Shown: positions 42,746-62,577 of the stretch, in pieces
How the letters are laid out: every line of letters begins with the position of its first letter
Numbering within the stretch: position 1 is the stretch's first letter
Program-made: the position numbers and the translations under genes
The notes under the pieces: generated by a model
Told to the model about the DNA's origin: nothing
Database searches by the model: none
What the model saw: the letters and a program-made list of their open reading frames with translations, nothing else
From: Bradyrhizobium erythrophlei
Lineage (GTDB): Bacteria > Pseudomonadota > Alphaproteobacteria > Rhizobiales > Xanthobacteraceae
Reading direction: 5' to 3'
NCBI RefSeq assembly: GCF_900129505.1
Contig: NZ_LT670818.1
Location: 5,489,001 to 5,553,000 of the forward strand
DNA: 64,000 bases

Positions 42746-43052
42746 ATGAAATCCTCCTTGGTCAGGTGAATCAGTTGGAGCTGCGGGGCAACCGGAAAGA
42801 TCTGCTTCAAGTCGTCCTTTGCGTCCGGAGAATGCGCTCTGGATATGACTTCGGATATCAGGGAATTTCCTGAATCAAGGACGGGAAATCCCTACGGAAA
42901 TCCCTACAGTAATCGCCCGAGTATTGGATCCCGCTATTGCGCACCTGCTGCCTCAAGGATCGGGCAACCTCGTCGCCCGGCTTGGCACGCGCCACGACAC
43001 AACGCTGTGCTTGCAGGGCGAGTGCGAGCACTGATTGTGTTCGTCTCGATTG
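42746..43052. other. intergenic between DUF3551 and hdeD-like genes
   Basis: No gene in 307 bases. It contains the dyads at 42859-42907 and a half-site AGGTGAATC close to the DUF3551 ribosome site. Both flanking genes point to the minus strand, so this is the DUF3551 promoter region. Confidence 0.5.
42859..42907. promoter_or_regulatory. clustered dyads including a 12-bp tandem repeat
   Basis: CAGGGAATTTCCTG (42859-42872) is a near-perfect palindrome. It is followed by two perfect tandem copies of GGAAATCCCTAC (42884-42895 and 42896-42907). The cluster lies ~115-160 bases before the DUF3551 start and resembles the GGGAATCACC-type dyads in other promoter regions of this part of the window. Confidence 0.5.
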
Positions 43053-43610
43053 TTACGCAGTCCTGCTCACGGACTGAAACGCGTAAAGCAGCCACGCCAC
43101 GCCGTGCGAAAGCAGATCGACGCCAAGGAGGAGGCCGAGGGCCCAGAGGCTGATGGTGGGGAAGCCGAACAGGATCAGCACGCCGGCGAGCAATCCGAAG
43201 GCGCCGGAGATCAACATCATCCATCCGTTCTGTCGCCAATGGGCGAAACTCAGGACGCATCGAATGATGCCCGATGCTAGCAGCAGCGCGCCCAGGAAAT
43301 AGGTCAGGATCAGGGCGCCGGAAGCCGGCTGGGTGAGCAATACGAGTCCAAAAGCCAGATAGAGCGCGCCTAACAGGAGTTGCCACAGAAGCCCACCCCA
43401 TCCCTTGGTCCAGAAGGCATGAAGGATTTCGAACGCGCCGGCGGCGATGGCCGCAAGCCCGATCAGTTTGACGCTGATGATCGTGGCGAACACCACGTCG
43501 CTGAGGGCGAAGATGCCCGCGGCGATCATCACGATGCCAAGGAGCGCACAGACCCATAGCGGCGGAGGGCGCAAGGTTTCGATGTCGGACCGGCTGTCGT
43601 AGACTGTCAT
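43053..43610 (-). CDS. HdeD family membrane protein (DUF308)
   Basis: A 185-residue inner-membrane protein with six predicted segments arranged as three similar hairpins. The first ~20 residues are polar. Motifs of the HdeD/DUF308 family are LLGIVMIAAGIFALSDVVFATIIS and FLGALLLASGIIRCVLSF. HdeD is linked to acid and stress tolerance in enterobacteria; in this genus it is a common member of stress regions. GAGGAGG precedes the start. Confidence 0.88.
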   Translation of the reverse strand: MTVYDSRSDIETLRPPPLWVCALLGIVMIAAGIFALSDVVFATIISVKLIGLAAIAAGAFEILHAFWTKGWGGLLWQLLLGALYLAFGLVLLTQPASGALILTYFLGALLLASGIIRCVLSFAHWRQNGWMMLISGAFGLLAGVLILFGFPTISLWALGLLLGVDLLSHGVAWLLYAFQSVSRTA

Positions 43611-43796
43611 GCCATCCTCCTCGATCCGCGCGACAACTATTGACGCATGGGAAGGTAGCCTCCAGCCCGGATCGCCGGCATCCGACGAAACCCTGAGCGC
43701 GGGGACGGGGATATCTGCTGCAGGACGAGAGTTCGGCGAACCGCGATCAGAACGTTGGCCCCGAAGCGGCGAGGAACGTGCCGAACACCGGGGGCG

Positions 43797-43988
43797 TCAA
43801 GAACACCAGGCTGGTTGCGAGCTCAACTTGGCGCTCGCGCAATTAAAATTAATAAGGCTGTTCTCGGAAAGCTGGCGACGTTGCTGCTTGAGCTTGCTTA
43901 TGTGGGCAGTCGCCAGCCCAAGCAGTATTACCGCCACCAACAAGCTTATGACGAAAATCACCATGGTCGGCCAGCTGAACTTGCGCAT
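43797..43988 (-). CDS. small single-pass membrane protein, 63 residues
   Basis: A short ORF with one clear membrane segment (MVIFVISLLVAVILLGLATA, residues ~9-28) and then a basic coil (KLKQQRRQL). GGATG lies ~10 bases before ATG 43988. Such one-pass proteins are common but hard to prove from sequence. No family recognised. Confidence 0.45.
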   Translation of the reverse strand: MRKFSWPTMVIFVISLLVAVILLGLATAHISKLKQQRRQLSENSLINFNCASAKLSSQPAWCS

Positions 43989-44177
43989 CAAATCATCCAA
44001 ACAAACTCAGCGACCGGACCTCGCCCGGAGAGTGCAGGGCGGCTCTCTTTGGGCGGAGTCCGCGACCAAATGGCGCCACTACCTTTGACGTCTCAACGGC
44101 GACCTTGTCTATCGTCGGATCACGTGTTGCGCCAACTACGCGCAGTTCTTGCTTCGTTACTCTTTCGGCAGAGAGTC

Positions 44178-44193
44178 CGGTTCGTACGAACCG
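44178..44193. promoter_or_regulatory. perfect 16-bp palindrome
   Basis: CGGTTCGTACGAACCG reads the same on both strands over all 16 positions. It lies in a divergent intergenic region, ~190 bases from the small membrane gene and ~290 from the patatin-like gene. Size and symmetry fit a dimeric repressor (TetR- or GntR-like) site. Confidence 0.5.
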
Positions 44194-44248
44194 CGGCTTG
44201 CGTTTCACGCTCGCTTATAAGGCTCCTCTGCCGCGACCTGCGATATCA

Positions 44249-44281
44249 GGCGATTACCTTAGTGCTCGAAAGGGAATCACC
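44249..44281. promoter_or_regulatory. dyad A of the recurrent GGTGATTMCC/GGGAATCACC type
   Basis: GGCGATTACC (44249-44258) and GGGAATCACC (44272-44281) are imperfect inverted arms separated by 13 bases (TTAGTGCTCGAAA). The whole 33 bases align with the site at 50763-50794, including the central TTAG-G-CGAA, so the match is not limited to the arms. Confidence 0.5.
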
Positions 44282-44485
44282 TCAACCGTCAAAACATCGA
44301 TTTGTACCGTGTCCACCTAGTGAGCCCTTCCAAACGCCAGCACTGCCAAACCCCAGCACAGCGATTCGTCACATCGCATGGCCGCACCAATGATTAGTTG
44401 GCGCGGGTTAGGGTAAGACCCGATGGGAGTTGAGGCTTCGCCCCGTTAGGTTTTCCGTCCTTGCAACCGTCCATGAGAGGGTGCG

Positions 44486-45529
44486 ATGGAAGCCGTCCCT
44501 TCCGGTCGCTCTGACCGCGCGAGCGTTTTGGTCGATCTTGCCCTGCAGGGTGGCGGCTCTCACGGCGCCTTCACGTGGGGCGTGCTCGATCGGCTCCTCG
44601 AGGAATCATGGCTGCGAATCGATGGTATCTCGGGCACTTCTGCAGGCGCGATGAATGCCGTGGTATTGGTTGATGGCTATGAAAGGGAGGGACCCAGGGG
44701 AGCGCAGGCTGCGCTGGAAAGTTTCTGGCGGCGCGTCTCGTATTCCGCGCGATTCAGTCCGATCCGGCGGAGCCCTATGGATATTCTCTTGGGCCGCTGG
44801 ACGTTGGACAACTCGCCATTCTTCGTTGTGTTCGACCTGGCCGCGCGTTTGTTCTCGCCCTATGACCTGAACCCGCGCGGCGCTAATCCGTTACGCGACA
44901 TACTTGCCGAATGTGTTGACTTTGGCCGAGTGGCGAAATCTTCAATCCGCTTGTTCGTGACTGCGACTAACGTTCGCACTGGCCGGGGGCGTGTGTTCCG
45001 AAATGCCGAGCTCTCGCCGGACGCGCTGCTCGCCTCCGCCTGCCTGCCGACATTGTTTCAGGCGATAGAGATCAACGGCGAGGCCTATTGGGATGGCGGC
45101 TACTCGGGCAATCCGACCATCACCCCATTGGTGCGTGAGTGCACGTCGCACGATACGTTACTCATCGCAGTCAATCCCGTCGAACGCCAGGGCACGCCGC
45201 GTTCGGCGCGCGAGATCCTCGACCGTTTGAACGAAGTTTCCTTCAATGCGACCCTGCTGAAGGAATTGCGCATGATTGCCTTATTGCGCCAGGTCGCGGA
45301 TGTCGGCACCGGCGAGGGAGCTCTGTGGGCAGGAATGCGAATTCATCTGATTGCAAGTACAGCGATCGACGAGCTTGGAGCGTCTTCAAAGTTCAATGCA
45401 GAATGGGACTTTCTGAGCATGCTGCGAGACGAAGGCCGGCGTTGCGCGGAATCCTTTCTGGCGTCGCATGGTGCGAGTGTCGGTAAGAGGTCCACACTCG
45501 ACCTGGACGTTCTCCTGGAGCAGGTCTGA
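44486..45529 (+). CDS. patatin-like phospholipase
   Basis: A 347-residue acyl hydrolase. The oxyanion motif is QGGGSHGAF (residues ~21-29), the nucleophile is Ser52 in GISGTSAGA, and the dyad aspartate is Asp203 in WDGGYSGNP. No signal peptide, so cytoplasmic or peripheral. It is followed after four bases by a GntP-type permease and further on by a hydrolase and an amidohydrolase. Members of this group can act on lipids or on storage polyester intermediates; the sequence does not decide. Confidence 0.93.
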   Translation: MEAVPSGRSDRASVLVDLALQGGGSHGAFTWGVLDRLLEESWLRIDGISGTSAGAMNAVVLVDGYEREGPRGAQAALESFWRRVSYSARFSPIRRSPMDILLGRWTLDNSPFFVVFDLAARLFSPYDLNPRGANPLRDILAECVDFGRVAKSSIRLFVTATNVRTGRGRVFRNAELSPDALLASACLPTLFQAIEINGEAYWDGGYSGNPTITPLVRECTSHDTLLIAVNPVERQGTPRSAREILDRLNEVSFNATLLKELRMIALLRQVADVGTGEGALWAGMRIHLIASTAIDELGASSKFNAEWDFLSMLRDEGRRCAESFLASHGASVGKRSTLDLDVLLEQV

Positions 45530-45533
45530 TGAC

Positions 45534-46988
45534 ATGGGCCTCCTAGGCATCCTGCTTGCTCTGGGTCTGCTTGTTTGGCTGGCTTATCGCGGCTGGAGCG
45601 TGCTTCTGTTGGCGCCTGCGGCGGCGCTTATAGCTGCCGCCGTTTCGCGCGAGCCGCTGCTCGCGCATTGGACCCAAACCTTTATGGGCAGTGCTGCGCA
45701 ATTTCTCGCGCAATTCTTCCCGCTGTTCCTGCTCGGGGCGCTATTCGGCAAGCTCATGGATGACAGCGGCTCGGTCGCAGGCATCGCGCGCTTCATGACC
45801 GAGCGCATGGGTGCGCGCCGGGCGATACTGGCAGTGGTACTCGCCGGTGCGCTGGTGACGTATGGCGGCGTGAGCCTGTTCGTTGCCTTTTTCGTTTTGG
45901 CTCCGATGGCGCAGGCGCTTTTTCGGGCCGCCGGTATTCCGCGGCGGCTGATGCCGGCGGCGATCGCACTCGGCACCTCGACGTTCACGATGACGGCATT
46001 TCCGGGCACGCCCGCCATTCAGAACGCGATTCCGATGCCGTTCTTTGGCACGACGCCCTTTGCCGCACCTGGCCTTGGCGTCGTCGCCTCCGCAATCATG
46101 CTGGGATTTGGATTGTGGTGGCTCACCCGTTCCGAAGCCGCCGCGCGGCGAGCGGGTGAAGGCTATGGCGACGGCGCCGATATTGCGCCCAGCGCGGTTG
46201 CTGATGATCCGGTTGTTCGAGAACTGGCGACGGTCGCGCGCGAATTTGATCCCGCAGAGATCAACCACGGACGCCACGGCGATGCTGCGGTGCCAATCGG
46301 TGTTGCCGTGCTCCCGCTGGCCGTGGTCGTGAGCGTGAATCTCCTGATGTCGCTGGTTATTCTGCCGCGTCTCGACTTTTCCTTTCTGGCGGAGGAGCGC
46401 TGGGGCGCTACGTCCCTGTCGGCTGTTGCAGGCGTCTGGTCGGTGGCGGTGGCACTCGCGGCCGCTACTCTTGTGCTTATCGTCTCCAATCGTCAGCGGT
46501 TACCGACGTTGCGCGAGAGCATGGATGCCGGCGCCAATGCCTCTGTCTTGCCGGCGTTCAGTGTTGCCAGCCTCGTAGGCTTCGGCGCAGTCGTCGCCAT
46601 GCTGCCGGCGTTTGCAACGGTACGCGATTGGGTGCTTTCAATCGAGGGGGGGCCATTGGTCTCGCTAGCGATGGCAACTAACCTGCTTGCCGCGCTGACC
46701 GGGTCGGCTTCGGGCGGCATGACGATCGCGCTCGATGCGCTCGGTGACACCTATATGCGTATCGCTGCAGAGCAGGGTATCGACCCCGCCTTGATGCACC
46801 GGGTAGCCGCCATTGGCTCCGGTACCCTTGACAGCTTGCCGCACAATGGCGCGGTCGTGACGCTGCTCACCGTCTGTGGCTCGACGCATCGCGAAAGCTA
46901 TCTCGATATCGTCATGGTCGGGATTGTGGGCGCACTCATCGCCCTCGTGGCGGTTATCGCCCTGGGCTCCGCGTTTGGCTCCTTCTAG
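45534..46988 (+). CDS. GntP family permease
   Basis: A 484-residue membrane transporter with about twelve hydrophobic segments. FPLFLLGALFGKLMDDSGSVAGIARFM and LGTSTFTMTAFPGTPAIQNAIP are typical of GntP/CitMHS-like proton symporters for gluconate, hydroxybutyrate or related acids. LTGSASGGMTIALDAL and GTLDSLPHNGAVVTLL near the C-terminus are also characteristic. ATG 45534 is just after the patatin stop, so the two are likely co-transcribed. Substrate could be a hydroxy acid released by the hydrolase. Confidence 0.88.
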   Translation: MGLLGILLALGLLVWLAYRGWSVLLLAPAAALIAAAVSREPLLAHWTQTFMGSAAQFLAQFFPLFLLGALFGKLMDDSGSVAGIARFMTERMGARRAILAVVLAGALVTYGGVSLFVAFFVLAPMAQALFRAAGIPRRLMPAAIALGTSTFTMTAFPGTPAIQNAIPMPFFGTTPFAAPGLGVVASAIMLGFGLWWLTRSEAAARRAGEGYGDGADIAPSAVADDPVVRELATVAREFDPAEINHGRHGDAAVPIGVAVLPLAVVVSVNLLMSLVILPRLDFSFLAEERWGATSLSAVAGVWSVAVALAAATLVLIVSNRQRLPTLRESMDAGANASVLPAFSVASLVGFGAVVAMLPAFATVRDWVLSIEGGPLVSLAMATNLLAALTGSASGGMTIALDALGDTYMRIAAEQGIDPALMHRVAAIGSGTLDSLPHNGAVVTLLTVCGSTHRESYLDIVMVGIVGALIALVAVIALGSAFGSF

Positions 46989-47085
46989 AAATGCTGCGGG
47001 CGCAGGCAGAAACGATGGGCCGGAGACCGTTCTCGCTTACCAGGACGGTCTTCCACAGCATCATCGCGGTTAGAGAAAGCCGATC

Positions 47086-48558
47086 ATGCGAGCGAAAATA
47101 TTCAGATCTGCAAGACTTGCGGGGATTCTGCTGGGCATGGTCCTGCTGACGTTTCTCGTCGTCCGGATCTACGACACGCAGAGGGGACCGCCGCTCAAAC
47201 CGTGGCACACATACATTCCGCACGAACTGCATGCGGAAAAGCTCGAAACGGCGGATTGGAAGCAATATCTGGCGGCCGAGGCAGCGATCTTCGACGACGT
47301 TGAGCGCGAGGTCTCCCGGAAGCTCGAGGTGAGCGATCGCGTGCCGTCCAACCGGTATTTTGACGGCAGTCCGGTCTATCCGGCGCACTTCGTCCAGGAC
47401 TTTAATCGCTCATTCGTGCTCCAGCCGAAGGAAAAAGCGGTCGGTGCTGTCGTGCTTTTGCATGGCCTGACGGATTCCCCCTACAGTCAGCGCCATATCG
47501 CGCGTTTCTATCGTGATCACGGGTTTGTGGCCATTGTGCCGAGGCTCCCGGCGCACGGCACCGTTCCTGCCGCCCTGACCGATGTCGAATGGGAAGATTG
47601 GATGGCGGCGACGCGACTCGCGGTGCGCGAAGCACGCAGCCTCGTGGGGCCGTCCGCGCCATTGCATCTGGTCGGTTTCTCCAATGGTGGAGCGTTGGCT
47701 TTGATGTATGCGCTCGATTCCATCGGCGACGAAAGACTGTCTCGGCCGGATCGCCTTGTATTGATTTCGCCCATGGTCGGCATCACACGCTTCGCAGGCT
47801 TTGCTGGTCTGGCGGGCTTACCGGCGATCCTGCCGGCCTTCGCCAAGGCCGCGTGGCTCGGCATAGTGCCCGAGTTCAATCCGTTCAAATACAATTCGTT
47901 TCCCGTCAACGGCGCACGCCAATCCCATCGCCTGACCCGGGCTTTGCAGCAACGAATCGCTCGTTATGCCCGCACAGACAAATTAGGCCAGCTGCCGCCG
48001 ATCCTCACCTTTCAGTCGCTGATTGACTTCACGGTGAGTACGCGGGCCATCGTATCCGCGCTCTATGCCTATCTTCCCGCGAATAACAGCGAGTTGGTGC
48101 TGTTCGATGTTAACCGTACAGCCAGGTTCGGTCCCTTGCTCCGCCCGAGCACCGACACCGTACTCGCGCGCATCATACCGAGCGGCCCACGGCGCTATCG
48201 CCTCACCATCATTACCAACGCCGATGACGAAAGCGACAATGTGATTGAGCGCGTTACCGAGGCCGATAGTGATGCCGAGACGTCGCATCCCCTCGGGTTA
48301 TCGTATCCGCCGGCATTCTACTCCTTGTCGCACGTTGCGTTGCCATTTCCGATCAGCGACGCTCTGTACGGGATCAAACCGGACCGGTCCGAGAATTTCG
48401 GAGAAAATCTCGGTACTCTGATGCCGAGAGGTGAACGCAACGTCCTGATCGCCAGCCTCGACTCGCTGATGCGGGCATCGTCGAACCCGTTCTTTCCCTA
48501 CATGATTGATCGGATCGGCGAGGGTATTCCCGCCGTGGCCAACCAGCCCGCCCAATAG
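47086..48558 (+). CDS. membrane-anchored alpha/beta hydrolase (S33-like)
   Basis: A 490-residue hydrolase. An N-terminal membrane segment (~residues 10-27) anchors the protein. The oxyanion strand ends VVLLHGLTDSPYSQRH (~122-137) and the nucleophile elbow is VGFSNGGALAL (~196-206). Acid and base are less certain: NADDESD (~378) and SLSHVALPF (~407) are reasonable candidates. It is ~95 bases after the GntP-type gene. Monoacylglycerol-lipase-like, substrate unknown. Confidence 0.85.
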   Translation: MRAKIFRSARLAGILLGMVLLTFLVVRIYDTQRGPPLKPWHTYIPHELHAEKLETADWKQYLAAEAAIFDDVEREVSRKLEVSDRVPSNRYFDGSPVYPAHFVQDFNRSFVLQPKEKAVGAVVLLHGLTDSPYSQRHIARFYRDHGFVAIVPRLPAHGTVPAALTDVEWEDWMAATRLAVREARSLVGPSAPLHLVGFSNGGALALMYALDSIGDERLSRPDRLVLISPMVGITRFAGFAGLAGLPAILPAFAKAAWLGIVPEFNPFKYNSFPVNGARQSHRLTRALQQRIARYARTDKLGQLPPILTFQSLIDFTVSTRAIVSALYAYLPANNSELVLFDVNRTARFGPLLRPSTDTVLARIIPSGPRRYRLTIITNADDESDNVIERVTEADSDAETSHPLGLSYPPAFYSLSHVALPFPISDALYGIKPDRSENFGENLGTLMPRGERNVLIASLDSLMRASSNPFFPYMIDRIGEGIPAVANQPAQ

Positions 48559-48697
48559 GGCAGCGCCAGGTCCTAATGCGCCCGTTGCGCGCCGGGCGCA
48601 GGTATTCTTGCACCGAAATACTGCTCCGAAAATCAATCCGGCATATCGATTCGCGCGCCAGCACGCGAGAGTCGGTCCGAAAAAACCCGAAATGCCT

Positions 48698-48709
48698 GGG
48701 TGAATACCC
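48698..48709. promoter_or_regulatory. small palindrome GGGTGAATACCC upstream of the amidohydrolase gene
   Basis: GGGT-GAAT-ACCC lies ~60 bases before the start of the amidohydrolase gene and resembles the other GGG/CCC dyads of this region (for example GGGAT-GAAT-ATCCC at 60440). It may be a single-site version. Confidence 0.35.
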
Positions 48710-48770
48710 TGATTGCCCGACGAGGCATGCGAATTTAGATGAGCGGAAGGTTCAACCCGGAGGGCGATCC

Positions 48771-50234
48771 ATGTTCTCGTGTACTTCGAATGATGACGCA
48801 GATGTGGTCAAGCACACGGGTTGCCTCTGCCACAGGCCGGAAATCCAGGTCCTGACGCGTCGCGTCAATACGGGTCTCTCGCGACGCGGCTTTGTAGCGG
48901 GAATGACGACCTCAATCGCATCGCTCGGGCTATCCCGACATGCCACCGCACTGGCAGTGCCCGCCCCGCCATCGCGTCCGATCCTGTTCGCGAATTTCCG
49001 GCTATTCGATGGAAAATCGAGCTCCTTGCGCGAGGGGGTTCGTCTGCTTGTCGAAGGCAACCGGATCAAGGCTATCTCGACCGGTAATCCGGCGGCGCCC
49101 GATGGGGCGCAGGTGATCGATTGCGGCGGCCGGGTTCTCATGCCCGGCCTGATCGACGCGCACTGGCATTCCATGTTTGCCAGTCTGCCGCTTTCAAATT
49201 TGCTGACCGGAGATATCGGTTTCATTCATCTGGCTGCCGGCGCTGAGGCCGAGCGTACACTGATGCGCGGCTTCACCACGGTTCGGGATCTCGGCGGCCC
49301 CGTCTTTGCTTTCAAGCAGGCGATCGATCAGGATCTTGTGTCGGGGCCGCGTATTTATCCATCAGGCGCAATGATAACCTCCACGGGCGGGCACGGCGAC
49401 TTGCGTCCGTTATCCGATGTGCCAAGGAGTCCGGCCGGCCCGCCGAGCGCTTTGGAGAAGTCCGGCGCCTCGAATATTGCCGATAGCCCGGATGAGGTTC
49501 GCTTACGTGTGCGCGAGCAGCTCTTTCAGGGGGCGTCGCAGATCAAGCTCGTGGGCGGCGGCGGCGTATCTTCACCGCGCAGCCCGCTGGACATGTCCAC
49601 GCTCAGCGAGGCCGAATTGCGTGCGGGGGTGGAAGCGACCGAAGACAGAAACACGTATGTCGCGGTACATGCATACGCGCCGGCCACGATCCAGCGTGCG
49701 ATCGCCGCGGGGGTCAAGTGCATCGAACATGCGCATCTGATGGACGAAGCAACGGCGAAGCTGATGGCCGACAAGGGCATATGGCTGAGCATTCAGCCCT
49801 TCCTCACAGACGATGACACGGGTGTCTTGGCGGGACCGAGCCGGATCGCCCAGCTTCAGGTCTTCGGCGGAACGGATAACGCGTACAATCTGGCAAAGAA
49901 GTATGAAATCAGGACGGCATTCGGTTCGGATATGCTGTTCTCGGAAAAACTGGCGGCGCGCCAGGGCACGATGCTGACCCATCTGACCAAATGGTACTCG
50001 AACGCCGAAATCCTGACGATGGCGACCGCCACCAATGCCGAGTTGCTCGGCTTGTCCGGTCCTCGTAATCCCTATCCCGGAAAACTGGGAGTCGTGCAGG
50101 AGAACGCGCTTGCGGATCTGTTGCTGCTCGACGGCAATCCCATCGAGAACATCAGGCTTATCGAGGATCCGGCCAAGAATCTTCTCATCATCATGAAGGA
50201 CGGAAGAATCTACAAGAATGCACTCCAACCGTGA
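48771..50234 (+). CDS. exported metal-dependent amidohydrolase
   Basis: A 487-residue amidohydrolase-superfamily protein. A twin-arginine-type leader stands at residues ~38-60 (LSRRGFVAGMTTSIASLG), unusually far from the start, so translation may begin further in. The metal site reads PGLIDAHWHSM (HxH), a lysine/glycine-rich KLVGGGGVSS, VHAYAP (His), CIEHAHLM (His) and FGSDMLF (Asp). Members act as prolidases, imidazolonepropionase-like or organophosphate-hydrolysing enzymes. GGAGGG precedes ATG 48771. Likely periplasmic. Confidence 0.87.
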   Translation: MFSCTSNDDADVVKHTGCLCHRPEIQVLTRRVNTGLSRRGFVAGMTTSIASLGLSRHATALAVPAPPSRPILFANFRLFDGKSSSLREGVRLLVEGNRIKAISTGNPAAPDGAQVIDCGGRVLMPGLIDAHWHSMFASLPLSNLLTGDIGFIHLAAGAEAERTLMRGFTTVRDLGGPVFAFKQAIDQDLVSGPRIYPSGAMITSTGGHGDLRPLSDVPRSPAGPPSALEKSGASNIADSPDEVRLRVREQLFQGASQIKLVGGGGVSSPRSPLDMSTLSEAELRAGVEATEDRNTYVAVHAYAPATIQRAIAAGVKCIEHAHLMDEATAKLMADKGIWLSIQPFLTDDDTGVLAGPSRIAQLQVFGGTDNAYNLAKKYEIRTAFGSDMLFSEKLAARQGTMLTHLTKWYSNAEILTMATATNAELLGLSGPRNPYPGKLGVVQENALADLLLLDGNPIENIRLIEDPAKNLLIIMKDGRIYKNALQP

Positions 50235-50336
50235 GGCCTGGGGGCCGTGCTGGTCTTCTCCAGGATGCTGCGATGGTTTCCCATCGTTTTGATGACCGTT
50301 CCCGGGAAACACCCGTCGTGATCGCTACGTTTCCCG

Positions 50337-50600
50337 CTATCGCCAGCCACAGACGCGGCGGCCCCTGTGCCACCAGCAGACCCATCGGCGACGACGGCGA
50401 CGACGGCGCGGATTTACAACTACGACCCGTACCTCTTTTATCAGTTCGTCTAATTCAGCGCCCGCCGGTTTGGGGATGCCTGTTGGGGCCGCTTCGAGGG
50501 CTTTTGGGGCCACAGCCCAGCCGACCGTCGTCACGCCAACCGCAGCAACAGCGGCGCCCGCCAGCACATCAGTGAGCATCGCGCGGCGACTCATATCCAT
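50337..50600 (-). CDS. small exported protein with arginine-rich C-terminal tail
   Basis: An 87-residue protein. The start MDMSRRAMLTDVLAGAAVAAVG is a twin-arginine-like leader, a short linker (EAAPTGIPKPAGAELDELI) follows, and the end is a run of eight arginines then WVCWWHRGRRVCGWR. Bradyrhizobium genomes contain several proteins of this design, sometimes labelled protamine-like. GGAGCAG precedes the start. The tail could bind nucleic acid, polyanionic polymer or membrane; function is unknown. Confidence 0.75.
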   Translation of the reverse strand: MDMSRRAMLTDVLAGAAVAAVGVTTVGWAVAPKALEAAPTGIPKPAGAELDELIKEVRVVVVNPRRRRRRRRWVCWWHRGRRVCGWR

Positions 50601-51015
50601 ATGTCTGCTCCGTTTCTCAAGACACCAAACGGCAAAACGAATCTTGCCGACTTGCAATTGGGATAGCCGTACAGATTCAAGTGCACCGTTGTCGCGGTGA
50701 CGCAATTTGTCGGCCCATCCGGCGTCAAGAAGAATGCATGGCCGCTCCGACGTCCGCTATCGGGTGATCACCTTAGGGCACGAACGATATCACCTCAGCG
50801 GCAAGGCGTGGGGCTTGGTCGGCTCTCGCGCGATACATCCATCGCCGCTTGTGGCCTGCGCGGGCTCGCCGAAAGTTCCGTTATGAGCGCAGCAACCTCA
50901 GTCAGCAATCTGCCGGAAGACCTGTGGCTCACGGCCGAATTAACCGAGATTACGATGCGTACATCATTACATGATTGTCACTGGAATTCCCGGCATGCCG
51001 AATTATAGACAGCCG
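50601..51015. other. divergent intergenic region with dyad, no gene
   Basis: 415 bases between the arginine-tailed protein (minus) and the DUF6894 gene (plus). It holds the dyad at 50763-50794. No ORF with a ribosome site and normal composition was seen. Confidence 0.5.
50763..50794. promoter_or_regulatory. dyad B of the recurrent type
   Basis: GGTGATCACC (50763-50772, itself a perfect palindrome) and CGATATCACC (50785-50794) flank TTAGGGCACGAA. The site aligns with 44249-44281 across the spacer and into the following CTCA. Confidence 0.5.
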
Positions 51016-51258: not shown

Positions 51259-51472
51259 GACCAGATGGCTGCCGAGGCGTCTTTTCGCTAGCGACCGGCT
51301 GCCAGCGTGCGTTTCAGAAGGCGCAAACACCCTGACCGCGCCGCCGCTCATGCTGGAGCGGGCGCCGGTAAACCCGGTTTTCCGACTTCATTGAACTATC
51401 AAAGGCGATTCCCAGGCGCGGGCAGCCGGGCCGCAGTCCATTGAGCGAACCGTTTCCGAGCGAGACCATGCG

Positions 51473-52253: not shown

Positions 52254-52284
52254 TGCACACGAGCCTGCGGCGCGAGGAACCGCT

Positions 52285-52998: not shown

Positions 52999-53401
52999 GG
53001 CCGTTATCCTCCTTGACCAGAGTTGCTTCACGGGAGGCCACGAGCTTGCCTGCGTTGCTGGCCCTAAGGACCGCCGCGACATCGCGAATTGGACCAGATA
53101 TCCGAAGCTGCCACCATCGGGGAAAACCCTCGGCTCCGGCGGTAGGGTGTGGCCTTGCGCTCCTCGCTGGTGTTTTCGATTCGGCAGCAAATTCGCTCGA
53201 GAATTTCTGTTTAGGCAAGTTTGCGTCAAATGGAGTTGCCGTCGATTCCATTTCGCGCGGAAGCGCGGCTTCTTGTTGGCGCGCGCTGTTCCTTGCTAGG
53301 ATGTTTCGACGAGGGCACGGCAATACGACCAACCTCTGCAGCGAGGCCGCCCGGACTGGAACTCCATGCATCGATTGTTAACGTGGAAGAAGGAGGCCGT
53401 G
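52999..53401. other. divergent intergenic region, no gene seen
   Basis: 403 bases between the BI-1 gene and a small exported-protein gene. Frames crossing it have unnatural composition. No repeat or strong palindrome was noticed. Confidence 0.4.
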
Positions 53402-53923: not shown

Positions 53924-54526
53924 TTACTCCGGCGATCCCGAATATGAGGCGTGTCTCTCCTCGGCTTTAGTGTGATGCGTCGGGCCTCGGCGCGACCAGT
54001 AGGCTATGACGAGGCCAATGAAGGCTATTACGGCCAAAACCAAAAAAAGCGCAGACTGCTTGACCCAGGAGATCGCCGGCACGGCCAAGACCAACGCGAA
54101 GCCGAGAAAGCAGATTGGTATTGACGGCAGGTTGAGGCCGGCCAGAAATGTGCCGAGCGCAAGCAATATCAGGAGCACGAGGCTGGTAGCCATCGCCGGG
54201 AAAAGCTGTTGAACTCCGGACAAGAGCAGAACATTCATCGCGACCAGGACGGCTGCCCAATGAATCGCTTGCGTCCATATCAGCCGCATACGGGCGTTTC
54301 TATCGTCAGTTTCCCCCCAGACTGTCAGCACGCATGCGAGCCCGGTCATAATCCCCAGGAACTCCCAATAACCCACCAGAGGCCGATGCGAAATGTTGGT
54401 GTAAGCCACGCCGATAATCGCCAGCGCAAGTATGGCCAGGAAGGGTAACTGAGAACGAAGGAAGCCACCTCTCGAGGTGCTATCACCGGAATCACTTTGA
54501 CCTGGGGGCGCATCAAGGTCGCTCAT
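53924..54526 (-). CDS. membrane protein of unknown function, five segments
   Basis: A 200-residue protein with a ~22-residue polar start and about five membrane segments (LPFLAILALAIIGVAYTN, EFLGIMTGLACVLTVWG, AIHWAAVLVAMNVLLLSG, ATSLVLLILLALGTFLAGLN, SALFLVLAVIAFIGLVIAYW). The C-terminus is basic. ATG 54526 is chosen; a GTG 18 codons upstream is possible. No family recognised. Divergent from the APC antiporter. Confidence 0.75.
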   Translation of the reverse strand: MSDLDAPPGQSDSGDSTSRGGFLRSQLPFLAILALAIIGVAYTNISHRPLVGYWEFLGIMTGLACVLTVWGETDDRNARMRLIWTQAIHWAAVLVAMNVLLLSGVQQLFPAMATSLVLLILLALGTFLAGLNLPSIPICFLGFALVLAVPAISWVKQSALFLVLAVIAFIGLVIAYWSRRGPTHHTKAEERHASYSGSPE

Positions 54527-55058
54527 GGATGGACCATTCGATCTTTTGGCCGCCGCCTCTCTCGTCCTGCTGTGCTGCACGGATGGACGACGAGCCGTTC
54601 CCGACGGGCTAATGCAAGTTGCAGGCGCAGAGAATGCGTCTCTCGTGCAGCAACATACTGCGCCTTTGCCGCACCTTGTGTAATCAGGTGAATCCCGGAC
54701 GAGCAGGGAATCACCCGGACGACAGGGCTCCCAGCGAGTTCGCCGCCCGAGTTTGGGGATCCGGCGGGAGGGCCACGCAGACGAGGGCTCTTGCCGCGCA
54801 GCACGATGACCACTCCGCGAGCGCGGGCGTTGCGCAATTGATTGTATGTGGTGCCACAGCGAGCGAAAGCTCGCGATGCATCTCTTTGATCAAGGCGTTT
54901 TCGCGTGGCGCATGCCTAACGACCCTACTGGTTGAACAATCTTCCGCAGACTAGGGATTAACCCTGACTGACAGGGCGTCGCGACCGATCTAGAACCAAC
55001 TATTCCTGCGTTTCTGCTGCCGTCCGCGAATGTCGTCATCGAACTGGGCCCCAACGGT
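54527..55058. other. divergent intergenic region with two dyads
   Basis: 532 bases without a convincing gene. It contains a strong dyad at 54687-54715 and AGGGATTAACCCT at 54953-54965, ~95 bases before the antiporter start. Confidence 0.5.
54687..54715. promoter_or_regulatory. dyad C of the recurrent type
   Basis: GGTGAATCCC (54687-54696) and GGGAATCACC (54706-54715) are inverted repeats matching at 9 of 10 positions, separated by nine bases (GGACGAGCA). This is the most symmetric member of the set. Confidence 0.55.
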
Positions 55059-56501: not shown

Positions 56502-56579
56502 TGCGCTGTAGTTCCAGGACGGAGAGGCAGATCGCGCGCGCCGGCCAGAGGCTGGCGAACAGGGCCGGTGAGGCAGCCT

Positions 56580-58325
56580 TTACTCGCGCGTCGTTTGGCC
56601 GTCCACATCGACCCGCTCGGGACGCAACACGACCAGGGCGCCGTCTTGTTGCAGCGCCAAAGTGTGGATGTAAAAATAGGCATCGGCGTCGTTGGCCGCC
56701 TCCATCACAGGGGAGGGCGCCGAAATGATCGAAAGGCCGGCGCATTGTCCGATCCAGTCGATGTGGCGATGACCGTGCATCAGGACGGCGCGGCCTCCCA
56801 GGGCCTGGAGGCGCCGAATGAACCAGTTTCCATTCACCAAAGCCGTGCCGATCCGCTCAGATAGCATCTTTGCCATTTTGGGATACTCGATCACGTGGTG
56901 GTGAAGCGCAATAATCCAGGATGCTTGAGGATACTGAGCCGTCGCGATGTCAATTCCTCTCACCTGCTCCACAGGAATCATTCCGAGCGCATTGGTGAAG
57001 GAAAAATGAGTGTCCGCGTTCGAGTTCAACAAGATGATTCCAAGACCGTCATCTTGCTCCGGCGGCAGCACCATTGGGAAGACCATCGACCATAGTTCAT
57101 CCAGGCTCCCCGAGAGTCGCGGCTTTCCAAGGTCGGCAAACCGAGCCATTTCCGCTCGGTGCGGTTTCAACGCCGCCGAGAGAGTGCCTGCCAGACAACG
57201 TCGGGGGTGGTCGATCAAGCGAACGCGTTCACCATGGAGGGCGTCCACGGCGGATAAAAACCGGAGTCGACGCAGCTTCCTGTTCGGACTTGTCGGGAGG
57301 TCGAGGCGAGCCGGATTCGCACGGTCGACGATATTGAGATCATGATTCCCCGGCAAGATAAGAAGCCGTTCGGCAATCCGTGGATAAGACGCCAATGCGT
57401 CGAAGATTTCCGACCACTCCGCCGAACGGCCCGCATCCGTGACATCGCCAGTGATGAGAATGGCGTCGAGAGGATCGTTCCGGTGGATGGAATCCGTCAA
57501 GGCGAGCAGCCTGTTAAAGCGCATATTTCCGCGCGGACCCGCTCGGCCACTTTCGATACGAAAACCGTAGCGTTCGCCCACGACATGGATGTCCGATAGA
57601 TGGGCCACACGCCACGTCCGGACCACCTGCAGGTTCGCCGGGAACTCCCTGAAGTCGCGAGGCGGAGCCATGGTTGCGTCGGCCCAGGCCCAGATGACTG
57701 CAGCGCCAGCAAGATAGGCTGCCATGAGCACCGTGCTGTTGGCCAGCGCGACGGAAATCAACTGGCCCGGTGAGGCAAGATCGGTGAAATCGCCGAGCCA
57801 GCGCGATGTTGGCCAGGCAACGATTAATAGCATCGAAGCCAGGGCAAAGATGACGATGCCGGCGACCCCGGCGGTTCGGGCCCGCAGAACGGCAAGCTGA
57901 GAGCCTTCAATCCGCGATTGCAGAAGTGTTTCGGAGAGGTGCCTCAAGCCCTCCCGGAAAAACAAATATAGTGGTTCGACGGCAAGCGAATTCAACGACC
58001 AGAAGCTGCTTTCGGCGACACGAAGCAGGCTTCTGATGCCGAACAATCCAATTGCAAGGACGGTCACAAGAACCAGCGCAGGCCAAATGCCGAGGAGAGG
58101 GGACACGATTTTGCGTGAGACCATGCCCACCCACGCCGAAGCAACGAGTGGTGTCAGACCGAGGAGTAGACCTGGGAGGATGAAAAGAGCCGTGCACGAC
58201 CAAATGAGCTTCGGAAAACTGATCTCAGCCAACATATTCCCCGCAAGCGAATACAGAGAACGAGCCTTGGTGCTTGACGCGTCATCTTCGACGTCTCCGA
58301 GACGAGGATCAATCACGGGGCTCAT
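56580..58325 (-). CDS. membrane-anchored metallophosphoesterase
   Basis: A 581-residue protein. About five membrane segments occupy residues ~35-215. A calcineurin-like phosphoesterase domain then follows with all metal motifs: VAHLSDIHVVGERYG (DxH), ILITGDVTDAG (GD), LPGNHDLN (GNHD), ALHHHVIEY (H) and LMHGHRHIDW (GHxH). Topology would place the domain in the cytoplasm or periplasm depending on segment count. Substrate unknown; relatives cleave lipid-linked or nucleotide phosphoesters. Confidence 0.88.
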   Translation of the reverse strand: MSPVIDPRLGDVEDDASSTKARSLYSLAGNMLAEISFPKLIWSCTALFILPGLLLGLTPLVASAWVGMVSRKIVSPLLGIWPALVLVTVLAIGLFGIRSLLRVAESSFWSLNSLAVEPLYLFFREGLRHLSETLLQSRIEGSQLAVLRARTAGVAGIVIFALASMLLIVAWPTSRWLGDFTDLASPGQLISVALANSTVLMAAYLAGAAVIWAWADATMAPPRDFREFPANLQVVRTWRVAHLSDIHVVGERYGFRIESGRAGPRGNMRFNRLLALTDSIHRNDPLDAILITGDVTDAGRSAEWSEIFDALASYPRIAERLLILPGNHDLNIVDRANPARLDLPTSPNRKLRRLRFLSAVDALHGERVRLIDHPRRCLAGTLSAALKPHRAEMARFADLGKPRLSGSLDELWSMVFPMVLPPEQDDGLGIILLNSNADTHFSFTNALGMIPVEQVRGIDIATAQYPQASWIIALHHHVIEYPKMAKMLSERIGTALVNGNWFIRRLQALGGRAVLMHGHRHIDWIGQCAGLSIISAPSPVMEAANDADAYFYIHTLALQQDGALVVLRPERVDVDGQTTRE

Positions 58326-58399
58326 AACGGGCTTCTGATCACGACCATGGCTGCGCTACCTTCTCTCCGAAGTTATCAGGCCGATCCGGTCGCGCGCGC

Positions 58400-59518
58400 T
58401 TATCCCCGAGCTTGGCGGATGAGGCGTCGGCTGAGATCATCTCCCAGCCAGTCTTCGACATAAAGCCGAAGAACGGCGACGCGGCCGACCGCAAACAGAG
58501 GCAGCGCGAGTGCAATTCCCATCACGCCGAACAGGGATCCGCACAGGACGATGGCAACCAATGTCCATGCGGGAGACAATTGCGCTGCTTGACGCTGGAT
58601 CAGAGGGCCGATCACATAGCCTTCGATAGATTGTATGGCGGTATAGATCCCAATTGCCCAAATTAGCTTTGAAAGACCAAGGGGCATGGCCACCAATGCG
58701 ACCGGGATGCCGGCTACAATTGGGCCGAGATACGGGACGAAGTTTGACGCGCCGGCCTGCGCGCCAAGAAGAAAGGCACCTGGGATACCCAGCAAATAAA
58801 GCGCGAGCCAGACACAGGCGCCCATCAGCACGATCCTAATAAGTTGACCGACAAGCCAGGAGCGAAGAACGCTACCCATTTCATCCAGAACGGCAACCAC
58901 GCGTTGCCGAGACGAAGGCCTCACCAACAGCACCAGGCCGTCGCGGTACACTCTGGGGTGCAAAGAGAAAAGAAGCCCCAGGAACATCACCACAAGCGTG
59001 TTGGCCAAGACGCTGGCCGTTGTTCCGACAGCGGTTTGGGCGTGACCGAACAGTTTGTCGTGATCGGGAAACCAGCGGGAGAGATCGCGGCTGCCCTCCG
59101 GACCGAACAAATCAACACCAACGGCCAGCATACGCTGTTGCAGGACCTCAAGCTGGGTATCCATCACGCGGATCAGGAGACTGGCCTGTTCGGGGATTTT
59201 CCGCGCACCCCACATGGCACCGACGACTATCAGTCCGGTCAGGATAAGAATCACCAGACTCAATCGCCAGATGCGGCCAATGGGCAAAACCTGGCTGAGT
59301 GCGCGAGCACAGCTGTCGAGAAAAGACGCAAGCAGAATGCCTGCGAATATGATGAGAAGGCTCGAAGACGTTCGCCATACGATCAGGATGCCGAGGGCGA
59401 CGCCCAGTACTGTGAGGGCGTCGGCCAAGGTGAACCGCGGAACAGAATCCTCCGCTCTCGACGAGATCCCACCACGCGAGATGACTTCGGCCTCTTTGCC
59501 ATGCTTTAGTTCAGTCAC
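58400..59518 (-). CDS. AI-2E family transporter (PerM/TqsA-like)
   Basis: A 372-residue membrane protein with about eight segments. FTLADALTVLGVALGILIVW and the central PEQASLLIRVMDTQL helix lead to the conserved VPYLGPIVAGIPVALVAM region and a final PAWTLVAIVLCGSLFGVMGIALALPLFAVGRV. The family includes the AI-2 exporter TqsA and Na+/H+ antiporters. The start is uncertain: GTG 59518 is chosen, but GTG 59623 is also in frame. It is 74 bases after the phosphoesterase gene on the same strand. Confidence 0.88.
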   Translation of the reverse strand: MTELKHGKEAEVISRGGISSRAEDSVPRFTLADALTVLGVALGILIVWRTSSSLLIIFAGILLASFLDSCARALSQVLPIGRIWRLSLVILILTGLIVVGAMWGARKIPEQASLLIRVMDTQLEVLQQRMLAVGVDLFGPEGSRDLSRWFPDHDKLFGHAQTAVGTTASVLANTLVVMFLGLLFSLHPRVYRDGLVLLVRPSSRQRVVAVLDEMGSVLRSWLVGQLIRIVLMGACVWLALYLLGIPGAFLLGAQAGASNFVPYLGPIVAGIPVALVAMPLGLSKLIWAIGIYTAIQSIEGYVIGPLIQRQAAQLSPAWTLVAIVLCGSLFGVMGIALALPLFAVGRVAVLRLYVEDWLGDDLSRRLIRQARG

Positions 59519-59687
59519 TTGGCCCTCGACGTCTGCTTCGTTTCGAGCGGTTGAATGCGATGCTCCGTGCTGCCTCGAGCCAAGTGAAGCGCAAGAGGGC
59601 CGGAGCTCCTTTGCGTCGCCCACTCATCGAGGGTCACTGCGCTCCTGCCATCCAGGCGGGGTTTGATGAGACGAATATATCTACGTT

Positions 59688-60323
59688 TCAAAGCCCGACC
59701 AATTTCGCACGGATCGCGTACCGCACCAGCTCGGCGGTCGATGAAACCCCAAGCTTGCGCATCGCCGAGGCGCGATGAGTTTCAACGGTCTTCACGCTGA
59801 GGTCCATGACGGCCCCTATGGATCTGTTGGTGTGTCCTTCCGCAATAAGTTGAACAACGTTATGTTCCCGGGAAGATAATTCGATCGCCGGCCTGTCCCT
59901 CTTGCTGAGTTGATAATCGTGGAGCAATTTCTCCAATACCAGACTGGAGAAATACGGACGATGTTCAAGAAGCGCCTCGACGGCCGCGATGAGATGGCCC
60001 CTTGCGTCTGATTTCAGCAGAAAGCCTCGTACTCCCGCCATGAGGACTTCAGCGAGAATCGCCTCGCTGTCATGCATTGTGAGAATGAGAACTTCCGTGC
60101 GCAGATGACTGGATCTAATTCGCCGGCTGACTTCGACCCCGGTCATAAGAGGCATTGAGTAATCGAGAATCGCTACATCCGGTTTCATTTCCTGAGTTCG
60201 CACAAATGCGTCCTTGCCGTTGACGGCTTCTCCGCTGACGGCCCAGTCCGCGCGGCTTTCGATGATCGCGCGAAGGCCGGATCTCACGACTTCATGATCG
60301 TCTGCAATCAGGATTCGCTTCAC
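59688..60323 (-). CDS. NarL/FixJ-type response regulator 1
   Basis: A 211-residue regulator: receiver domain (~1-120) with ADDHE acidic pocket, phospho-acceptor Asp54 in VAILDYSMP and the LLKSDA lysine region, then a LuxR HTH (~145-205: LIAEGHTNRSIGAVMDLSVKTVETHRASAMRKLG, in parts). GTG 60323 aligns exactly with the start of its neighbour paralogue. The two proteins share long identical stretches, so they arose by duplication. The dyad at 60379-60419 lies just upstream. Confidence 0.93.
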   Translation of the reverse strand: MKRILIADDHEVVRSGLRAIIESRADWAVSGEAVNGKDAFVRTQEMKPDVAILDYSMPLMTGVEVSRRIRSSHLRTEVLILTMHDSEAILAEVLMAGVRGFLLKSDARGHLIAAVEALLEHRPYFSSLVLEKLLHDYQLSKRDRPAIELSSREHNVVQLIAEGHTNRSIGAVMDLSVKTVETHRASAMRKLGVSSTAELVRYAIRAKLVGL

Positions 60324-60378
60324 AGTGCTGTTTCCGTGGATCCGCTGGCCTCTGATCGACAATTACTTACTGCCCGAC

Positions 60379-60419
60379 GGGTGATCTATTATAAGGGCTT
60401 ATCCTCGTGGCGATCACCC
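60379..60419. promoter_or_regulatory. dyad D upstream of response regulator 1
   Basis: GGGTGATC (60379-60386) and GATCACCC (60412-60419) are perfect 8-bp inverted arms, 25 bases apart. A second palindrome GGGAT-GAAT-ATCCC is at 60440-60453. Both are within 130 bases of the regulator start, suggesting autoregulation. Confidence 0.5.
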
Positions 60420-60568
60420 CACAAAACCCTGAAGCTCCAGGGATGAATATCCCGAGTGATAGTCGGCGCTTGATCCAAGAATCTGCGAGGCTGCATGCGG
60501 ACGTCCGTCCTGATTAACGCAGCCGGAGTTGGATCGAACCGTGCTTCCAATGTCCGAACTAAGCGGTT

Positions 60569-61198
60569 TCATGCCTCCAAGAGCTTGTTGCGAACGGCGT
60601 ATCGGACCAAGCCAGCGGTCGAGCGTACGTTGAGCTTGCGCATGGCGGTAGCTCTGTGCGTTTCCGTAGTTTTGATGCTGAGGCTTAGCAGCGCACTGAC
60701 TTCCTTGTTGCTGTACCCTTCGGCAATCAATCTGACGATCGTCTCCTCGCGCGGCGAGAGCAGTTGATGCCGGCCGCCATTGCCGCCCGCGATGCCCTTC
60801 AATTCGCTCGAAAGCGCGCTGGTGTAAAACGGCTTATGTTGCATCAACGACTCGACGGCAGCCAACAGCAACTTGTTCGCATCGGATTTCAGCAAAAAAG
60901 CGTAGGCGCCGGCTTGTACCGCCTGCAATGCCAACTCATGCGAGTCATGCATCGTGAAAATCAGTACTTCCGTCGCGAGTTGACGTTCCCTGATACGCCG
61001 TGTGACTTCTACGCCGGTCATGAAAGGCATCGAATAATCGACGATCGCCACGTCCGGCCGCATTTCGATGGCGGCAGCGAGGGCTTGATTGCCGTCGTGC
61101 GCCTCAGCAACGACCTCCCAGCCTGGACGCCCTTCCAGCAGGGCACGCAGCCCCGATCTCACCGTTTCATGATCATCAGCTACAAGAATCCGTTTCAT
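60569..61198 (-). CDS. NarL/FixJ-type response regulator 2
   Basis: A 209-residue regulator with receiver domain (Asp54 in VAIVDYSMP, LLKSDA) and a LuxR HTH (LSPREETIVRLIAEGYSNKEVSALLSLSIKTTETHRATAMRKL, in parts). It is 27 bases after the histidine kinase gene, so it is its probable direct partner. MKRILVADDHETVRSGLRALLE matches the start of response regulator 1 almost position for position. Confidence 0.94.
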   Translation of the reverse strand: MKRILVADDHETVRSGLRALLEGRPGWEVVAEAHDGNQALAAAIEMRPDVAIVDYSMPFMTGVEVTRRIRERQLATEVLIFTMHDSHELALQAVQAGAYAFLLKSDANKLLLAAVESLMQHKPFYTSALSSELKGIAGGNGGRHQLLSPREETIVRLIAEGYSNKEVSALLSLSIKTTETHRATAMRKLNVRSTAGLVRYAVRNKLLEA

Positions 61199-61225
61199 GA
61201 TCCTGCAAACTCCTGGCCGATAGCA

Positions 61226-62140
61226 CTATCGCCGATCGTCGCGGCGGTTCGGATTTCTCCAAATTCCGACCGGCGGGCTCAATTTAGTAGTCTCGCGCAC
61301 TGGATAGTGATGGCCTGGACGGTTGTGGGGTGGCTGTGGCGTGTGCGCCTCCCTTGGCGCAGGGTAGGGGAGCAGGGCACAGACCGTGGTGCCTCGGCGC
61401 AGTCCCGTCGAGGAATGGATTTCGAAGGTACCTCCCAACTGGCGCACCCTGCTTCTCATCCCCGGAATTCCAACACCAAACGAAACGGCCTTGGGTCCGG
61501 ATTTTGCCTGACCGGTCGGAATCCCGCAGCCATCGTCAATTACACGGAGCCGAACATCATTCCTCCTGGCATCAATGGCGATCGTGACCTGTGTCGCGTG
61601 CGCATGCCGGAACACGTTTGTGAGCGCTTCTTGAACAATTCTGAGCAGCGAGCACTGCGTCTCGTAAGGAAATCTGCAGACCTCAGGAGTGATGTCGACA
61701 ATGCTCCTCAATGAAGTGCGCGCCGAGAATCCGTTTGCGTATTGCTCGATTGTGCTCTTCAAGCCGTCGTTGAGCAGATCTTGGGGGTACAACAAATACG
61801 AGAAGGCACGAATTTCCTGAAGCGCCTGGTTAATTGAGGCGTCAATGTCGTCAAAGATTTGCTTTGCTGTGCCTGCATCGCCCGTCGCGTGCCTCAGCCG
61901 CAGCAGGTTCAAGCTCGCGGCAATCAAATGCTGGCATGTCGAATCGTGAAGGTCGGACGCGATCCGCTGCTGTATATCTTCCTGAAGCGATAGTAGGCGG
62001 ACGGCAATATTTTCGTTCGCACGGATTGCCGCGCTTCTCTCTCTATCACCGGTAGTCCTGTCACCGGCGGTCGCGCTCTTCGCCCGAGCGAAACTTCGGC
62101 AAGATCCGTATCCGTCTGGGCTCGGCTTTGTTTCCTTCAT
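61226..62140 (-). CDS. soluble sensor histidine kinase (HisKA_3/NarX type)
   Basis: A 304-residue kinase without membrane segments or a recognisable input domain: ~45 basic residues, then the HisKA_3 helix pair with the phospho-acceptor His65 in IASDLHDSTCQHLIAASLNLL, and an HATPase_c domain (EALTNVFRHAHATQVTI N-box, VIDDGCGIP G1, GVGIPGMRSRVRQLGG G2). The ~45-residue C-terminal tail is Pro/Arg-rich. It probably senses through a partner. Transcribed with response regulator 2. Confidence 0.92.
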   Translation of the reverse strand: MKETKPSPDGYGSCRSFARAKSATAGDRTTGDRERSAAIRANENIAVRLLSLQEDIQQRIASDLHDSTCQHLIAASLNLLRLRHATGDAGTAKQIFDDIDASINQALQEIRAFSYLLYPQDLLNDGLKSTIEQYANGFSARTSLRSIVDITPEVCRFPYETQCSLLRIVQEALTNVFRHAHATQVTIAIDARRNDVRLRVIDDGCGIPTGQAKSGPKAVSFGVGIPGMRSRVRQLGGTFEIHSSTGLRRGTTVCALLPYPAPREAHTPQPPHNRPGHHYPVRETTKLSPPVGIWRNPNRRDDRR

Positions 62141-62577
62141 TGTTTCCGCCAGACAATTGAGACAGGGGAAGGCTGCGTGATCTCCCTAAGGGCAATTGCT
62201 CATCGGTCGTCCTGACGAGATGAGTAGAAAACCCCCTCGCCGTCGAGTCAAGCGAAAGGATTGTGGCAACTACTGCGAGTAAGCTTCGGATTTAGCTAAA
62301 ACAACGCGGCATTTCCGTGGGGTCCGGCATGCTGTTGGCCGCAGCATATCGATGCGGCGGAAGCCGCTCGGGAAGCCCCTAAGCAGTATTATCACTATAG
62401 CTGCGGTCAGTACATTTGCTGATAACGGAGGCGCTTTTCCAGGTCCAGACTGATCGCGGTGAATTGATGTATTTCGCCAGGCGACCGGACCACCTCGTAA
62501 GCAGGCCGATGATTTGGTGTTGGTCAATCTGGCGATGCCGCAGACCGAAACATTCGCGGCTCACCAAGGGTGGAACC
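62141..62577. other. divergent intergenic region between kinase and efflux adaptor
   Basis: 437 bases, no gene. It contains CCCTAAGGG (62184-62192) in the kinase promoter region, which resembles the centre of dyads A and B, and AT-rich stretches around 62385-62415 that may hold the adaptor promoter. Confidence 0.4.

Follow-up and report, generated by a model that had tools for sequence, protein, structure and literature searches.

A tandemly arranged 16-bp palindrome as the candidate operator of two adjoining NarL-type response regulators in a Bradyrhizobium stress island

We focus here on a 64-kb stretch (the window; contig NZ_LT670818.1, positions 5,489,001 to 5,553,000) of the 9.18-Mb, single-contig genome of Bradyrhizobium erythrophlei, and on a motif that recurs in the promoter regions between about 42 and 63 kb. 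An earlier note had described a recurrent dyad with arms of the type GGTGATTMCC and suggested an undescribed local regulon, with two neighbouring NarL-type response regulators, here RR1 and RR2, as its likeliest readers. The recurrent motif is real, but its unit is a 16-bp palindrome resembling TCAGGG-NATN-CCCTGA (the box), and the dyads mostly consist of two such boxes in tandem, with centres 19–23 bp apart. We propose, with a probability of about 0.78, that the boxes are operators of RR1 and RR2, which would bind as tandem dimers next to the − 35 element and activate an island of envelope, acid and low-energy stress genes. The motif, its tandem spacing, the fixed distance to a − 10-like hexamer, the conservation and the co-inheritance are all seen directly in the genomes compared.

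First of all, the box was defined by expectation maximization (EM) for palindromic motifs. In 6391 bp of intergenic DNA from the window (42.2–62.7 kb), EM at width 16 returned a palindrome that holds both arms of the 44249 and 54687 dyads, the left arm of the 50763 dyad and several single palindromes, with a likelihood gain of 44.9 as compared with 24.7–28.3 in four mononucleotide shuffles. Low-complexity GC motifs outscored it in the same run (50.8), and the motifs reported for widths 18 and 20 did not include the box; this run alone is thus not decisive and, given the GC motifs, EM was repeated on 5185 bp of DNA from ten relatives, mostly upstream of a regulator or kinase gene (locus L049 is a Bax inhibitor promoter). 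The same motif came out on top at width 16 (TCaGGg.at.cCCtGA), with a gain of 81.7 versus 44.1–47.7 in six dinucleotide shuffles; at width 18 the gain was 86.5, with shuffles at 47.5–76.7. Since both runs yield the same palindrome, the single box is the unit and most dyads are pairs of it. A TTG-N-CAA-like candidate from the window was not among the motifs reported from the relatives, and the pattern GGYGAT-N12-30-ATCRCC, with 389 places in the genome, is uninformative. The string GGTGATNACC occurs at at least 83 forward and at least 76 reverse places in the genome, versus 5 and 2 for its reversed control.

Palindromes of this kind might have arisen by chance, belong to dispersed repeats or form RNA hairpins, for example terminators, all of which we consider very improbable here. 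Loose dyads (GGYGA and TCRCC separated by 12–32 nt) are frequent in the window, with 31 occurrences, 23 of them within predicted coding DNA and 8 non-coding, including the four dyads listed earlier. Terminator-like sites are also more numerous than in shuffles (29 versus 17.4, s.d. 3.5), and one such hairpin, followed by TTTT, overlaps the proximal box of RR1, a site to which the hairpin reading may apply. The tandem spacing, the fixed distance to the − 10-like hexamer and the recurrence at orthologous promoters, versus boxes at 2 of 238 control genes, on the other hand, argue against all three, and an Rfam search of 42–63 kb gave nothing that reaches the gathering score.

Second, the boxes are concentrated in this region. 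About 800 kb of the genome was scanned with a 27-site matrix and the whole genome by degenerate pattern only; the matrix holds sites of other genomes exclusively, several of them chosen with a matrix that had included window sites. Boxes above 12 bits number eight in the 21-kb core, eight in the 379 kb around it and six in 400 kb elsewhere; one of the eight core boxes (15.8 bits) sits inside the kinase gene and is probably a chance match. For pairs 18–24 bp apart that sum to more than 16 bits, the counts are five, three and none, two of the three neighbouring pairs sharing one box upstream of the permease–arginine deiminase genes. The degenerate pattern finds 55 places in the whole genome versus 20 when reversed, and 5 of the 55 fall within one 24-kb stretch of this region. 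Tandem spacing in the module loci peaks at 22 bp (18 counts) and 23 bp (9 counts), with 0 background counts at 18–24 bp; one pair may count twice in these figures, and orthologues are not independent.

Third, the box stands at a fixed distance from a − 10-like hexamer. Across 32 box-bearing promoters of the Bax inhibitor, HdeD and ArcD genes, information peaks at the box, about 22 bp upstream of it and at the hexamer. A TAnnnT starts exactly 32 bases past the box centre in all 13 Bax and all 12 HdeD promoters that have a box; these counts are conditional on a box of at least 6 bits within a set distance range, and the hexamer search began after the Bax alignment had been seen. At RR1 promoters, TAnnnT starts 31 or 32 bases past the conserved box in 17 of 18. 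Within the window this spacing of 32 recurs at HdeD (TACCTT), RR1 (TATAAT) and the patatin gene (TAGGTT, 44447-44452, counted from the 44408 box), and a looser nAnnnT stands at the same distance from the boxes at 42858 (CATTCT), 50760 and 54684 (CAGTAT). A − 10 element at 32 bases puts the box centre at a predicted position near − 43, adjoining − 35. A scan with the consensus sigma-70 promoter gave 2 sites versus 6.9 expected and was of no help.

A spacing peak of 22–23 bp together with a fixed distance to a − 10-like hexamer matches, at the sequence level, a tandem operator of the BvgA type. According to the available portion of PMC7250471, BvgA of Bordetella, also a NarL-family regulator, occupies DNA as head-to-head dimers that follow one another at 22 bp (centre to centre) on the same face, the proximal one abutting − 35; the layout of its inverted-heptad primary site, TAAGAAATTTCCTA, is like that of the box. 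The two systems differ in box sequence (the BvgA site reaches at best 10.4 bits across the flanking bases tried), in the genes served and in number, with up to six dimers there and usually one or two boxes here. A further relative by architecture is DevR/DosR of mycobacteria. The DevR box has the core GGGACT/AGTCCC, unlike the box described here, and Pfam recognises neither a GAF nor a haem domain in our kinase, so that the system is not of the DevR/DosR kind. The likeness lies in the NarL subfamily, in two or more closely packed boxes, in a start-proximal box over − 35 and in cooperativity, as given in the accessible part of PMC3029386.

Three observations connect the boxes with RR1/RR2: the regulator or kinase promoter itself carries boxes in other genera, the island is inherited together with the regulator and, as a weaker point, boxes are rare upstream of distant regulators. 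Among 60 genomes of the genus, the regulator is present in 20 (E 1e-50 or better), and a Bax inhibitor of at least 70% identity accompanies it in 19 of these 20, versus 0 of the 40 non-carriers. The sole exception, G056:C203:18468-19091, has a single regulator (54% identical to RR2) and no orthologous Bax inhibitor. In 15 of the 19 Bax promoters a box lies 69–77 bp before the start (6.7 to 11.3 bits with a combined matrix), as compared with − 126 in this genome, where the 53117 box aligns with the distal box of the relatives and the proximal one is degenerate. Eleven more distant Bax-like genes from regulator-free genomes gave one box-like site (12.2 bits, − 214), which is not kept in its four look-alikes. 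Of 80 loci, 48 were scored for boxes above 12 bits upstream of the regulator: among the 13 nearest relatives (47–69% identity), 8 have one within 2400 bp and 6 within 600 bp, while the 35 more distant ones (at most 42%) give 4 and 1, respectively; the matrix includes sites from several of the 13.

Across 15 gene families (up to 18 loci each), a box above 12 bits occurs at 55 of 197 promoters and a pair above 14 bits at 20 of 197, whereas the 238 control genes give 2 and 0, respectively. Fisher and binomial values were set aside as evidence, since they count orthologous sites as independent. These counts take one best match per family per locus and drop matches below 40% identity (50% for RR1, RR2, APC and ArcD) as well as uncovered starts; ArcD and APC cross-matched paralogues in some genomes. 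With this enrichment and the concentration in the region, the motif is not random with respect to promoters or the genome, and conservation at orthologous promoters holds for many of them, but not all. Of the 15 HdeD orthologues with the start covered, 12 carry the box. The operon-internal AI-2E, AcrB and ArcA genes show no box above 9 bits; the low-identity operon-internal genes are, however, not a clean negative, with boxes at four DUF992 promoters (9.4–10.5 bits) and two at RR2, of 15.8 bits in this genome (the box inside the kinase gene) and of 9.3 bits in NFR13.

RR1 and RR2 both have Response_reg and GerE domains above the cut-off, which makes them members of the NarL/FixJ (LuxR-type) family, and the solved structures related to RR2 include VraR, NarL, EvgA, DevR, RcsB and FixJ. 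An operator of FixJ, or of another NarL/FixJ-family regulator encoded elsewhere, with RR1 and RR2 mere neighbours, is the main rival, though we judge it unlikely. The Sinorhizobium meliloti FixJ site on fixK, a 16-bp imperfect palindrome (TAAGTAATTTCCCTTA; shown in the part of PMC4999443 at hand), is similar to the box and reaches 9.0 bits with the matrix. There are also further NarL-family paralogues in the genome (nine matches in all). One half-site of the fixK operator, on the other hand, lacks the GG that is near-invariant in the box, and none of the FixJ targets listed in that part of PMC4999443 (nifA, fixK, fixX and a proline hydroxylase gene) lies within this island. The kinase, with HisKA_3 and HATPase_c and no PAS domain, is not that of a FixLJ system, and RR2 matches the FixJ structure (5xso) at 3.6e-18, far more weakly than VraR, NarL or EvgA (1.8e-27). 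RR1/RR2 are favoured instead by the boxes that regulator or kinase promoters carry in other genera, by the co-inheritance of the island with the regulator, and by the next-best paralogue being only 38% identical to RR2 in a search not aimed at FixJ itself. The earlier proposal of a local regulon read by the adjoining regulators thus gains support from the promoter boxes in other genera and from co-inheritance, and RR1 and RR2 remain its probable readers.

In the mechanism that we propose, each box would accommodate one head-to-head dimer of RR1 or RR2, and boxes about 22 bp apart would set two dimers on one face of the helix. The regulator bound at the proximal box, probably in its phosphorylated form, would then recruit RNA polymerase, as suggested by a proximal box that adjoins − 35 with its centre near − 43. 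The genes served would be those for HdeD, the Bax inhibitor, patatin/GntP, permeases and efflux and, past the window, those for DUF1269 and for arginine deiminase with an amino-acid permease; RR1 itself is probably a target. We infer the binding protein, the dependence on phosphorylation, activation rather than repression, and the signal. Activation and repression are not distinguishable from sequence, and the kinase has no recognised sensor domain; RR1 and RR2 might therefore bind the boxes mainly as repressors, or unphosphorylated, keeping the island off until stress. We regard this as improbable, given that the boxes lie 5′ of − 10 at a fixed distance and adjoin − 35 rather than covering the start, as in activation by BvgA and DevR in the portions of the papers cited above.

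Several observations weigh against operators of RR1/RR2, in addition to the resemblance of the fixK site. At a pair threshold of 14 bits the counts become 5, 3 and 3, that is, three in the 400-kb background, and a matrix from the EM of relatives only narrows the contrast for boxes above 12 bits to 7, 17 and 11. The TAnnnT spacing is seen in only 1 of 7 ArcD promoters, which have CATnGT-like letters instead, and in 3 of 5 DUF1269 promoters (the other two at 33), and the boxes at 48697 (+), 53117 and 54952 (+) have no nAnnnT at the standard distance. No box precedes the Bax gene in G015, G030 and G024, though the regulator is present, and the HdeD box is missing in three Tardiphaga-type loci. 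A single clear box is commoner than a pair (55 above 12 bits versus 20 above 14 bits). Finally, both RR1 boxes are poor matches in this genome, so that they are placed by the 18-genome alignment alone; the RR1 operator is the least certain site of the set.

Table 1. Boxes, − 10-like hexamers and regulatory genes in the window. Site scores are from a matrix built from sites of other genomes; distances between boxes are centre to centre.
Feature	Position	Strand	Score or basis	Remark
Strong proximal box of tandem operator, DUF3551 gene (42548-42745, -)	42858..42873	-	22.0 bits	
Weak distal partner, 22 bp from 42858	42880..42895	-	3.6 bits	pair sum 25.6
TACCTT, − 10-like	43652..43657	-	spacing	starts 32 bases past HdeD box centre
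Box at − 78 of HdeD/DUF308 gene (43053-43610, -)	43681..43696	-	12.9 bits	
Tandem-operator box between 63-codon open reading frame (start 43988, -) and patatin gene	44246..44261	.	17.8 bits	
Partner box, 23 bp from 44246	44269..44284	.	10.9 bits	pair sum 28.7
Patatin box (gene 44486, +; then GntP permease and hydrolase genes)	44408..44423	+	15.4 bits	
Partner box, 21 bp from 48697	48676..48691	+	9.1 bits	pair sum 20.0
Box 5′ of amidohydrolase gene	48697..48712	+	10.9 bits	
Box 5′ of 87-aa open reading frame (50337-50600, -)	50760..50775	-	16.2 bits	CATTCT 32 bases past centre
Weak distal partner, 22 bp from 50760	50782..50797	-	3.1 bits	pair sum 19.2
Bax inhibitor box at − 126 (gene start 52998, -)	53117..53132	-	10.1 bits	
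Box 5′ of membrane-protein gene (53924-54526, -), tandem with 54703	54684..54699	-	17.0 bits	
Partner box, 19 bp from 54684	54703..54718	-	9.3 bits	
Box 5′ of APC permease gene (55059, +)	54952..54967	+	14.8 bits	orthologues mostly below 10 bits
RR1, receiver-GerE response regulator (NarL/FixJ type)	59688..60362	-	Pfam	
TATAAT, candidate RR1 − 10	60388..60393	-	spacing	32 bases past box centre
RR1 promoter, proximal box	60417..60432	-	1.9 bits	alignment of 18 genomes
RR1 promoter, distal box position	60440..60455	-	-3.5 bits	alignment only
RR2, receiver-GerE response regulator	60569..61198	-	Pfam	56% identity to RR1
Histidine kinase (HisKA_3, HATPase_c)	61226..62140	-	Pfam	no recognised sensor domain
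Weak box 5′ of HlyD efflux gene	62407..62422	+	5.9 bits	identical in G015

The sites are collected in Table 1. All sequences listed in the earlier note are present where it had placed them, and its dyads at 44249 and 54687 resolve into the pairs 44246/44269 and 54684/54703. The 50763 dyad keeps the 50760 box, while its second arm is only the weak partner at 50782. The dyad at 60379-60419 was mis-parsed: in the RR1 promoter this inverted repeat spans the spacer and − 10, and the conserved box is 60417-60432. Single palindromes at 42859, 48698 and 54953 correspond to the boxes at 42858, 48697 (with 48676) and 54952, and the first copy of the tandem repeat at 42884 is the weak partner of 42858. 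The 60440 palindrome occupies the distal-box position of the relatives but scores poorly here, and that at 62184 (5.2 bits) is unsupported. Sites at 43681, 44408, 53117 and 62407 are absent from the note, as are boxes shortly past the window end at island genes (5555921 and 5566396, above 12 bits); the regulon is thus not confined to the window. The 44408 box has 15 of 16 bases identical in G015, and the membrane-protein gene at 53924-54526 has tandem pairs in Tardiphaga-type orthologues and none in other Bradyrhizobium-type ones.

Between 42 and 63 kb lie genes for HdeD/DUF308, patatin, a GntP permease, an alpha/beta hydrolase, an amidohydrolase, DUF992, the Bax inhibitor, an APC permease, a metallophosphoesterase, an AI-2E transporter, the two receiver-GerE regulators, the HisKA_3 kinase and an HlyD-type protein. 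The 87-aa open reading frame behind the strong 50760 box has an arginine run, a WVCWWHRGRRVCGWR tail and no Pfam match. RR2 matches were found in Tardiphaga and Bradyrhizobium. G046 has the RR1–RR2 gene pair twice (C1:1445544 and 5942742), and its kinase (L185:1461-2645) carries a PAS domain, whereas none is recognised in the kinase at 61226-62140; the kinase reference aligns only from residue 133–160 onward in this genome, two Tardiphaga loci, NFR13 and B. manausense. In other genera the regulator/kinase gene is divergent from genes for a sulfatase-modifying enzyme and a sulfatase, with boxes between (L054 4812-7504, assigned by Pfam; L050 and L053, assigned by reading), and the sulfatase pair is a possible second kind of target.

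The gene content of the island points to acid, low-energy and envelope stress, as suggested by arginine deiminase with an amino-acid permease, an Mrp-type antiporter subunit, HdeD, the Bax inhibitor and efflux. The arginine deiminase pathway is reported to be tied to acid tolerance and symbiosis in rhizobia (PMC7268258, in the part available), and to occur in B. diazoefficiens and not in B. japonicum strains (PMC4070871, likewise in part); such presence or absence by species fits a patchy island. In what is accessible of the main text of two B. diazoefficiens papers (PMC10454721 and PMC6515984), Bax, HdeD, NarL and arginine deiminase do not appear. In titles and abstract beginnings of the open-access literature, among the matches listed, neither the box nor the regulon is described, so that the regulon is undescribed as far as that search goes, as the earlier note had supposed. 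More tentatively, the sister regulators may read the same 22-bp-phased operator, with RR2 beside the kinase gene, RR1 amplified by its own operator and perhaps mixed dimers; a portable island made up of envelope and efflux genes together with those for arginine deiminase, HdeD and the Bax inhibitor might then be switched on as one survival programme in the island-carrying third of the genus, a possibility that we hold to be rather doubtful. For the co-inherited stress island of Bradyrhizobium-like bacteria, arginine deiminase included, the analysis yields a candidate regulator and a putative operator resolved to the base.

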